From contig NC_003284.9 in the NCBI RefSeq assembly GCF_000002985.6, positions 4,216,001-4,280,000 on the forward strand: DNA of 64,000 nt, read 5' to 3'. The notes under the pieces are model-generated. The model worked only from the letters and a program-made list of their open reading frames with translations. It made no database searches and had not been told where the DNA came from. The position numbers and the translations under genes are program-made. This DNA is from Caenorhabditis elegans (taxonomy: Eukaryota > Nematoda > Chromadorea > Rhabditida > Rhabditidae). This document shows, piece after piece, positions 23,415 to 26,960 of this stretch; within the stretch, counting starts at the first letter, position 1; each line of letters starts with the position of its first letter.

Positions 23415-23428
23415 GCCGCCATAGCTCA
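23415..23428 (+). tRNA. 5' fragment of an interrupted tRNA-Ile(AAU) gene
   Basis: GCCGCCATAGCTCA supplies the 5' acceptor strand (GCCGCCA), the linker and the first half of the D-stem. The acceptor strand pairs perfectly with TGGCGGC at 26592-26598. The gene is cut by a 3.1-kb insertion at the D-arm, inside the internal A box. Confidence 0.85.
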
Positions 23429-23752
23429 CACAGGTAAAGCGCGTCAGGTTAGTGGCAACCTGCCAGCAGGCCGCAGGCTGCTGAATGGAGAACAACTGGC
23501 AGATGAAATCGCGGCCCGCTGTCAAGTTGACACTAAGCCGCCGCGGGCCGGCAACAGGTCAACGTCAGGTTTGTGTCAGGTTCTTGTAGATTCTGTATTA
23601 GGCTTTTATATACCGGGAATACTGCTTTTTGTTATTAAATGCTAATACAAAAAGAGAAAAATTGCCAAAAATTTCGTTTATTGAAGATGAAGAATGAAAA
23701 AATAAATTTGAAAAAAGGGAAAAAAAACATAAATATTATTTAATATTTCGGC

Positions 23753-24535
23753 TTAGTGTAAGCCTCGTCTCGATTCCCGATTCCTTGGATCCATCATTAG
23801 CAGCCACTTGGTCGAATTGTTTATTCTGTGATTCTGAGCAGCATCAGATGGGCGGTAACGTAGAAAATGAGCATCTATCGGCGACAGCTCAAGGAGTTTG
23901 ACATCATTCCGCATCTTTCTGTAAAAAATTAACGTTAAAGTTGAGAGGAACCGCTAGTTTTTTCCAAAGGAGCTAAAAAATTATGATTTTAAAACTCACT
24001 TTGTAAGGTTAATTCTCTTTGCAAAGCATGATCCGAGCCAAGATGGTGTGGGCTTAGCGACGACAAATTCGAACTATTGGTGGGAAGATTTCCTCGTATT
24101 TTCTAAAATGTTTAAAATTTACATTACATTGAAATATTTAATTATGAACATACACTGTGATCATCATCGACGTCATTCCAACCAGTTGAAATCGCATTTC
24201 TCTCCTTTCTCTCCTCCAGCCATTTCCGTGCCATCTCAATCGTTCGTGTAAACGTCGAAAATGCTGAAACACCAATAAATATACGGAAAATAATTATTTT
24301 TGCCGAAAAATCAAAGAATTGATGAAGAAAACAAAGAAAAATCGAAGAAAAAGAAAAATAAATGGTGAAAAAATAATTTCGAAAATGAGAATTTACGGTA
24401 AAGAGTGCGCGCTACCGTTAGTTCGGAGTGTCGTTGCCATCTGAGTTTGGAGCTTCTTTTGAAATTCTTTCTCGCTTTTATTAGAAGTCGTAAAAAACAA
24501 ACAAAAATCACGCTGAGTCGGAAATGTGATTTGTG
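23753..24535 (-). CDS. Spliced coding region carried by the element; unknown protein
   Basis: Four exons close in frame on the minus strand: 24535-24416, 24263-24154, 24073-24000 and 23918-23753. They use donors GTAGCG, GTATGT and GTGAGT and end at TAA 23753. The open sequence is at least ~155 residues. Readable blocks include QRDFCLFFTTSNKSEKEFQ, RTIEMARKWLEERKERN, AKPTPSWLGSCFAKRINLT and DAHFLRYRPSDAAQNHR, and the basic C-terminus is RNRESRRGLH. The first exon enters with one base carried over, so either an upstream exon is missing from my model or translation starts at the internal ATG (QTQMATT). The intron before the third exon ends in a weak acceptor (ccaatag). No domain is recognised; it could be an element-encoded protein or a captured host gene. 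The start is uncertain. Confidence 0.6.
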
Positions 24536-25405
24536 CTTGAAAACAACAAAAATTAAAAAAAAATTTAGTTCAGAAAAAATTTAACTAAAAATTTTCCACT
24601 GATATCAAAAATTTCATAAGGGTCCCCCCTTATGAAACAAATTTTGATAAATTTTTTTTTCCAAAAATCCTGAATACTGCTTTAATGTGTGGGAAATGTA
24701 TATTTTAGTATTTTCCAAAGTTTTCATGGCTCAATCACACTCCTGGGCAAAAAAAATACAACACTCAATTTGGCTTGTTCATAGAAAGTTAATACTTCCA
24801 AAATGGTCTAGCACCGTTGGTAGCGGAAATATGAAAAACTTGTCAAGTAGAAAGTTGTTAGGAATGAAGTGATTGGCAAATTAATCATTGTAACTTTTTG
24901 CCATCTCGGATATCTGAGCAGATAGGAGCACCTAATTACGAGTCAAATATCACTGATTTTGACTGATGATATCTCGGTATTCTGCAAAGAAAGCGAGAAA
25001 CTATCAAACGTAAAACATGGTCCATAACAAAATTAACAAGTTTGTAGTTAATAATTTTTTGATATCTTGCTTGCCCGACGAGGGTCATGGTACCAAAGAA
25101 CTGGCATAGCATGTAGATTAATTAGAGTAATTGAGTAAGGAAAATCTCTATTCAACTACAAAAATTGTTTCAACACATAATTTTACGTTTTTTCCACATA
25201 TTATTTGATAAAAGTTTGAACAAATTTTCAAAAATAATTTTAAACATGATTTCGAGTTTTGGAATCGCATCATAAGTATGAAATTTTAAAAACCGTGAAA
25301 GTCAATTTGTCTTTGTTTCTCACTAACCATATCTAGTGAGTTGATTTAAATAGGAAAATTGTTCGATAAAAACAGTTTTATCCCTTCATTAATTTTGTGT
25401 CAGTC

Positions 25406-25516
25406 AAAAAACTTTGCCTGACAGTAACCTGTCAGTAGGCATTTGCCGGCTCTTAGCCTGCTCCTAACCTGACACTTGCCTGACGCGGTGCGGTAACCCC
25501 AAAACTGTATTTCTGG
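25406..25516 (+). repeat. Direct repeat, left copy, beside the nested palindrome
   Basis: The segment from aaaaaactttgcctgacagt to ...ctgtatttctgg recurs with small differences at 26153-26274. Confidence 0.85.
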
Positions 25517-25614
25517 AGATAATATTTTCAGAAATTTTTTACTTCTCGAAATTTTCCGGAAAACTTATAAAATCGTACTGAAAAATGTCGTTTCTGCCGT
25601 TCAAATGCCCAGAA

Positions 25615-26050
25615 CACAATTTCTGGTAAAAAATTATGGTAAGTTTTCAAGAATGGGCTCATAAAACTTGTTGTCTCCGGTGGCCTATAACTCTGCGAAA
25701 AAAAATCCAATAAAAAAATGAATCACTAACGAGTTGCAGATAATGATCTAATGAACAACTACTCAGTTAAAAACTTTTTGTCAAAAAAATTGTTGGCCGA
25801 GTTAAGAGTGCTTGAAAAAAACGGCAGAAAGCTTAAATGTTCCCGAAATTTTCATGTCCAAACCTCGGCCAACAATTTTTTTGACAAAAAGTTTTCAACT
25901 GAGAAGTTGTTGATTAGATCATTATTTGCAACTTGTTAGTGATTCATTTTTTTGTAGGATTTTTTCCCGCGGAAATATAGGCCACCGGAAACAACAAGTT
26001 TTATGGGCCCATTCTTGAAAACTTACCATAATTTTTCACCAGAAATTGTG
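25615..26050. mobile_element. Nested palindrome inside the 3.1-kb element
   Basis: Arms of about 190 bp with the centre near 25830. The left arm begins cacaatttctgg and the right arm ends ccagaaattgtg. They also share cggccaacaatttttttgac and aacaagttttatggg (with complements). The arms differ at scattered positions, so the palindrome is not very recent. Confidence 0.8.
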
Positions 26051-26152
26051 ATATGAGCATATATGTTGATGTAAAATAGTAAACCATTTGTGTTTTACAA
26101 GATTAAAACAGTTTTGGGAAAAATTGAAAAAAAATTTTTTTTTTGGAGCCAG

Positions 26153-26274
26153 AAAAACTTTGCCTGACAGTAACCTGTCAGTTACCATTTGCCGGCTCTT
26201 AACCTGCCATTAACCTGACACTCGCCTGACGCGGTTCATGATCCGGTGTGGTAACCCCGAAACTGTATTTCTGG
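26153..26274 (+). repeat. Direct repeat, right copy, beside the nested palindrome
   Basis: Matches 25406-25516 over its length (aaaaactttgcctgacagta ... ctgtatttctgg) with a short insertion near 26236. Confidence 0.85.
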
Positions 26275-26539
26275 GAATAATTTTTTCAGAAATTTACACG
26301 AATGAACATATAACTCATTTTTATGAACTTTCACTCAGTTTCTGAAACTTTTATTTTCACTCATCTGACCCATCACCTGACGCGCTTTTCTGAAAATTTG
26401 AGCGAAAATCACTAAGCTGACACTAACCTGCTCTTAGCCTGACAGCGACTTTTAGCCTGATACTAAGCTGACACTAACCTGCTGGCGGCTTTTAACCTGC
26501 CATTCAGCTGCAACTAACCTGTGGCGCTTTACCTGTGCA

Positions 26540-26599
26540 GTCGGTTAGAGCGTGGGTCTAATAAGCCCAAGGTCGCAGGTTCGACCCCTGCTGGCGGCA
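26540..26599 (+). tRNA. 3' fragment of the interrupted tRNA-Ile(AAU) gene
   Basis: Starts GTCGGTTAGAGCG (rest of the D-arm). The anticodon arm TGGGT-CTAATAA-GCCCA has anticodon AAT. The T-arm GCAGG-TTCGACC-CCTGC follows, then the acceptor TGGCGGC and discriminator A. With 23415-23428 it makes a standard 74-nt tRNA. A pol III terminator (ATTTTTAG) follows at about 26603. As it stands the gene lacks a contiguous A box and cannot give a normal transcript, so functionally it is a pseudogene unless the element is excised. Confidence 0.9.
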
Positions 26600-26607
26600 A
26601 ACATTTT

Positions 26608-26960
26608 TAGTCTTAAAGGTGGACTATCGCCAGTGAACAAAGCGTTAAAACAATTTTTATGGTACCAAACGTTTCAAAAAAAAACATGAATTTTTTGTCT
26701 TATTTTGAAAAGTGGTAATCACTCAGTTTTTGTCACTATTTGGAAGTCGTCAAAAAACGTTTTTCTTTCAAATTTTATTATCTTCTGGGGCTTAAAATAT
26801 TAATATTCTAAAATTGTAAGAATTTGAACATTGGGCAGTATTGTTTTCTCAAAAAGTGGTGAAAACTCAGTAATTGACACTTTTTGAAACAAAGTAAAAA
26901 TGTTCAAAATTTTTATCAAAAAATTTACTATGACGCTTAGTAATTTTGTCATTATAGGAG
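26608..26960. repeat. Diverged dispersed repeat, copy 2
   Basis: Begins cttaaaggtggactatcgcc followed by agtg, immediately after the tRNA terminator. This resembles the end of a very abundant C. elegans repeat (AAAGGTGGANTANCGCCAGTG type, established knowledge). The interior around 26800-26850 is complementary to parts of the copies at 2840 and 29840. Confidence 0.55.

Follow-up and report, generated by a model that had tools for sequence, protein, structure and literature searches.

In yeast and in Dictyostelium, the retroelements Ty1/Ty3 and TRE, respectively, integrate at pol III genes under the guidance of pol III factors. Among DNA transposons, the closest described system is Dada, whose members lie within tRNA and other small RNA genes (PMC3706591, PMC8869645). 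As described in the cited parts of these papers, Dada insertions cluster in two parts of the tRNA gene, the A box and the anticodon region; 5S families exist as well; the duplications are 6-7 bp long, each family uses a fixed site, and the U6 and U1 families have no terminal inverted repeats. The same sources place Dada-tV in tRNA genes of several isotypes, namely Val, Gly, and Ala. In our search of open-licence papers we found no description of tRNA-targeting DNA transposons in Caenorhabditis, and the literature searched reports no tRNA targeting for the CACTA/CMC superfamily. Here we describe a split tRNA gene of Caenorhabditis elegans whose inserted element is, in our fairly confident reading, non-autonomous and belongs to a CACTA-like (CMC) clade of cut-and-paste transposons that prefers tRNA-type genes.

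The window is the whole stretch of 64,000 nucleotides that was analysed (C6:4216001-4280000, C6 being chromosome X), and the genome search covered 100,286,401 bases in 7 contigs. Within the window, at X:4239415-4242599 of the genome, a tRNA-Ile(AAU) gene on the plus strand is divided into two parts. The 5' part (GCCGCCATAGCTCA, 23415-23428) begins with the acceptor strand and breaks off near position 14, within the A box, while the 3' part (26540-26599) comprises the rest of the D-arm, the anticodon AAT, the T-arm with the B box, and the acceptor strand. A run of five T on the same strand (26604-26608) reads as a likely pol III terminator. The preliminary description had taken the two fragments for a complete 74-nt tRNA-Ile, and the joined flanks do score as one: ARAGORN calls tRNA-Ile(aat) on them (74 nt), and calls no tRNA in the window as it stands. 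Rfam at the gathering threshold finds the 3' part alone (26535-26591, 30.2 bits). Genome-wide, the 60-nt 3' part has 22 matches at 100% identity, the window locus among them. The exact joined 74 nt is present without interruption at 20 of the 21 other places, and the remaining one has a single-base difference in the 5' part of the tRNA. Since the joined sequence is identical to 20 other genomic copies, the tRNA identity is no chance fit.

These 20 identical and uninterrupted paralogous genes, together with the sister elements described below, also uphold the view that a tRNA gene was disrupted at this locus by an inserted element with inverted ends. An intron is ruled out, both by the break at about position 14 and by the 20 uninterrupted genes. 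The split copy is presumably dead, the break lying within the A box; with no fewer than 20 identical genes left, the genome would tolerate this loss. A young insertion is plausible: all 74 of the 74 tRNA bases are intact, and the best sister pieces of the element, which lie on several chromosomes, are 94-97% identical to it, with others down to 74%.

The inserted element (23429-26537, 3109 bp) lies between the tRNA halves and is bordered by a CA target site duplication, with the left copy at 23427-23428 and the right copy at 26538-26539. Its left terminal inverted repeat (CACAGGTAAAGCGC, 23429-23442, plus strand) and its right one (reverse complement GCGCTTTACCTGTG, 26524-26537, minus strand) agree at 14 of 14 positions, as had been claimed for both the perfect 14-bp ends and the CA duplication. 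Over 29 nt, the two arms (23429-23457 and 26509-26537) are 90% complementary. On the right side, a subterminal array of AACCTG/CCTGACAC units occupies positions 26373-26528 (TRF period 40 at 26445-26530), and related units are found at 23442-23582, 25407-25489, and 26153-26235. An internal inverted repeat (25605-26060) consists of two 197-nt arms, 25605-25801 and 25864-26060, that are 91% complementary. Twelve nucleotides within the element (26478-26489) match the 3' end of the tRNA (26587-26598), which by our own estimate is within chance.

The preliminary description had also proposed a genome search for sister copies of these ends, and many sister elements are indeed present. With at most one mismatch, the end pattern gives 87 genomic matches versus 11 for the reversed control, so that chance may account for about 11 of the 87. 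Fifty-eight of these ends pair into 29 elements, between 0.5 and 6.7 kb long, including the window copy; the other 29 ends stayed unpaired, and the analysis covered 25 of them. A target duplication of at least 2 bp is present in 27 of the 29 pairs (2 bp in 23 and 3 bp in four), and two pairs have less. Across these 27 copies the duplications comprise 12 different dinucleotides and no motif. The TA duplication of Tc1/mariner elements appears in 2 of the 27, at odds with membership in that group. The flanks of the 29 copies fall into 24 clusters, so few copies repeat one site.

We scored the target sites by a pol III A box plus a spaced B box on the joined flanks, and used 400 window positions as controls. 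A score of at least 13 is reached by 26 of the 29 joined flanks versus 5 of the 400 controls (Fisher p ~2e-33), and a score of at least 15 by 20 of the 29 versus none of the 400; three of the paired copies score below 13. The terminal sequences form about six subfamilies by eye, and each subfamily contains copies scoring at least 13. At default settings, ARAGORN finds a tRNA over the junction or at most 12 bases away in 11 of the 29 copies versus 0 of 1000 window controls, leaving 18 junctions with no call. At 85% thresholds, the corresponding numbers are 16 of 29 and 12 of 1000. The default calls cover ten isotypes (Ile, Asn, Phe, Arg, Val twice, Thr, Leu, Pro, Ala, and Gly), and several further sites are degenerate or tRNA-derived repeats. 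Thus the original observation was right but understated: most paired copies of the family lie in tRNA-type sequence, and the window locus is no one-off. Since the genome search with RF00005 scored only 63 of 8106 candidates, no tRNA gene count is drawn from it.

That an ordinary transposon landed once, by accident, in one tRNA gene would agree with the standard insertion anatomy of the locus, but it is contradicted by the flanks of the sister copies and is scarcely credible. The element and its tRNA flanks might instead have spread jointly by segmental duplication, in line with the likeness of some flanks (24 clusters for 29 copies). However, both the isotypes and the junction positions vary among the copies, and the 27 copies with at least a 2-bp duplication each repeat their own flank, which contradicts joint spread for most pairs and makes it most improbable. 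As a separate observation, the copies L084/L085 and L112/L113 belong to different subfamilies, and their insertion points in homologous tRNA-derived flanks coincide to the base. These flanks are 96.6% identical over 297 bases; the duplication TTC is common to both.

The junctions were placed approximately on the tRNA by setting the A box start at nt 8. In 13 of the 20 best main-family sites (score at least 15) they lie at about tRNA nt 8-22, with a median of 17 for the 20, and among the sites scoring at least 13 they range from about -10 to +44. By our own reading, the elements lie in either orientation with respect to the tRNA. Among the fetched unpaired ends, 7 of 25 pass a strict one-sided test versus 15 of 2000 controls; several of the others have flanks of tRNA-derived repeats by eye, and some show nothing tRNA-like. 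Rfam detected a tRNA in 5 of 20 single flanks, of which 4 reach the gathering score; this is what half genes would be expected to give. Additionally, an independent pattern composed of the last 7 end bases and a B box gives 14 matches versus 0 for the reversed control. Eight of the 14 belong to the main family, four belong to the sister family described next, and two have ends that differ by at least 2 bases.

The sister family, with ends CACAGGTGATTCGC, was first noticed through a second tRNA-Ile(AAU) 3' part that abuts its end. Its end pattern gives 109 matches versus 4 in the control; 58 of the 100 matches listed were combined into 29 pairs, and the analysis left out the remaining 42. Among the matches listed, 11 of the 29 pairs score at least 13, versus 5 of 400 controls, and 18 score below; two of the 11 high-scoring copies adjoin a whole tRNA gene. 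ARAGORN at default, run here without a control, places a tRNA at 6 of these 29 junctions. The junction median of the sister family, again among the matches listed, is 31.5 (8 sites) versus 17 for the main family (20 sites; p 0.0055). These 8 positions come from the 11 sites scoring at least 13; I:8949140, X:11933528, and X:16061410 were omitted for the absence of a clean duplication or for inverted flanks.

Three sister copies have unusual flanks. The copy at V:17118936-17120012 (L191/L192) is bordered on either side by one and the same stretch of a 5S rRNA gene, with the two flanks inverted relative to each other (99 of 100 bases), an arrangement around 5S sequence seen in this one copy only. 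Inverted flanks are found as well at III:700919 (L167/L168; 100 of 100 bases). At I:8949140-8953171 (L161/L162), the element lies between part of a tRNA-Ile(AAU) and a whole tRNA gene of another kind, Lys by our own reading, and lacks a duplication; the arrangement may have arisen by one-ended transposition or by recombination. Some Dada-tL copies are similarly bordered by two different tRNA genes, according to the cited parts of PMC3706591 and PMC8869645.

Among the matches listed, the 244-bp copies with ends CACAGGTGATTCGC (L157-L160, L163-L164, L177-L178, L189-L190, and L193-L194) differ from many long copies with the same ends, in that none of the six scores at least 13. A target set by the ends alone is ruled out by these copies, none of which is in a tRNA gene. 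They also bear on the idea that insertion was random and that mainly the copies in redundant tRNA genes survived selection. The redundancy of tRNA genes, with 20 other identical Ile copies, would indeed make such insertions tolerable. However, most introns and intergenic DNA tolerate insertions too, yet 26 of the 29 main-family sites are tRNA-type, and copies of 244 bp with the sister ends survive at sites other than tRNA genes. Selection alone does not account for the concentration in tRNA-type sequence, and we judge survival without targeting very unlikely.

Next, we consider the transposase. The closest long relative of the window element, L145 (II:2018651-2025348), is 94-95% identical to it in the three longest aligned pieces and carries degraded transposase pieces on its plus strand. 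A Pfam search with six single open reading frames of L145 gave no transposase match, and the pieces strung together with X matched DUF1258 weakly (1.3e-3). Pieces at II:2277791 matched Transposase_21/tnp2 at 7.5e-6 with 25.7 bits, under the curated cut-off of 28.6; this locus is taken as a putative relative from its 42% identity to one L145 piece. DUF1258 is found at 1e-61 inside a 10.3-kb sister element with tRNA-type flanks (X:16061410-16071751), in which, within the 2 kb fetched, an open frame of 184 aa is present. DUF1258 is a family with no named function, and by our own reading it would be a tnp2-like transposase. The PF02992 profile had no match over the genome, but it had none in its 14 control genomes either, and the result is uninformative. 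The window element itself is apparently non-autonomous: it has no match to the transposase piece of the relative, and no Pfam match over the cut-off in the 10 frames scanned of the 12 of at least 60 aa that overlap it.

The relatives also carry cargo. At L145:4274-4705 (minus strand) lies a cyclin-A-like fragment (Cyclin_N 1e-12), whose best solved relatives are cyclin A2. The fragment is common to several copies, with cyclin-like open frames of 144 aa in L145 and 125 aa at X:8410126, and we take it to be a gene capture by the transposon. Through L145, a remnant of the same fragment can be identified in the window element on the minus strand (24005-24200), as two pieces, 24005-24076 and 24084-24200, with one stop each. 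Additionally, L143 and L144 (6.3 and 6.7 kb), whose main aligned pieces are 95-98% alike, contain degraded LINE-like pieces between CACAGGT ends (Exo_endo_phos_2 4.7e-10 and RVT_1 4.4e-5 in L143; RVT_1 0.063 in L144).

CACTA/CMC elements are characterized by ends starting with CAC, subterminal repeats, and target site duplications of 2-3 bp. The present elements have short inverted ends beginning with CAC (CACAGGTAAAGCGC), subterminal AACCTG/CCTGACAC units, and 2- or 3-bp duplications in 27 of the 29 paired copies, four of them of 3 bp; in place of the strict CACTA start, their ends read CACAG. CACTA/CMC elements have a tnp2-type transposase; the candidate counterparts here are the tnp2- or DUF1258-like pieces of the long relatives, with the tnp2 match under the cut-off, and none was found in the window copy. 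In view of these matches in the relatives, we place the clade with the CACTA/CMC elements, to which it likely, rather than certainly, belongs. MIRAGE1, by its name a CMC element, comes from the same species and would belong to the same superfamily as the present clade. CMC elements are present in C. elegans (PMC12239620), among them MIRAGE1 (PMC7930041, PMC5554785); the cited parts of these papers report no tRNA target sites, and those on MIRAGE1 do not mention its target sites at all.

A mechanism can be proposed from these data. The substrate of a tnp2/DUF1258-like transposase would be the CACAGGT inverted ends, probably along with the subterminal repeats, and the enzyme would join the element ends to the target DNA with a 2-bp stagger. 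We infer that the target is chosen at integration, where insertion may be guided by the gene-bound pol III transcription complex (TFIIIC/TFIIIB) instead of by base sequence alone; targeting of tRNA genes would probably run via the pol III machinery. The many isotypes, the absence of a duplication motif, the A-box-centred scatter, and the occurrence of either orientation fit pol III docking better than sequence recognition.

Alternatively, the transposase could read A-box DNA directly (in the sister family, the anticodon region) with no part for the pol III machinery, as proposed for Dada. The concentration of main-family junctions over the A box, at about tRNA nt 8-22, argues for such recognition, as does the good A box retained by the degenerate tRNA-derived sequences that make up many main-family target sites. 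Dada, for which sequence recognition is proposed, uses the same two regions according to the cited parts of PMC3706591 and PMC8869645. On the other hand, the junctions of sites scoring at least 13 are spread over more than the A box and occur in both orientations with motif-free duplications, the sister family is centred further in, and a 5S gene also serves as flank. Direct recognition is an alternative that we consider rather unlikely. A bolder reading, to which we give slightly less than even odds, is that the CACTA-like clade as a whole finds pol III genes through docking to the initiation complex, whatever the isotype or base sequence, and that its subfamilies differ in landing position. 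The clade would then be convergent with Dada on two tRNA-gene regions and would be a DNA-transposon counterpart of Ty and TRE. A second, CACTA-like case of homing to tRNA genes would make pol III-guided integration of a DNA transposon testable in a genetically tractable animal. The family is also a source of tRNA gene loss and of tRNA pseudogenes.

Compared with Ty1/Ty3 and TRE, which are retroelements inserting beside tRNA genes, the elements described here insert inside them. Compared with Dada, their duplications are shorter (2 bp in 23 of the 29 copies, 3 bp in four, and less in two, versus 6-7 bp), and their targets are looser, with ten isotypes and junctions from about -10 to 44 instead of a fixed site per family; unlike the U6 and U1 families, the window element has perfect 14-bp terminal inverted repeats. 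Membership in Dada is ruled out on duplication length and site fixity, transposases aside. Among the literature searched, tRNA-homing DNA transposons are described only for Dada, and the present clade would be a second, CACTA-like case that differs in duplication length and in its looser target, yet enters the same two gene regions. This agreement reflects either convergence or the openness of these parts of the gene.
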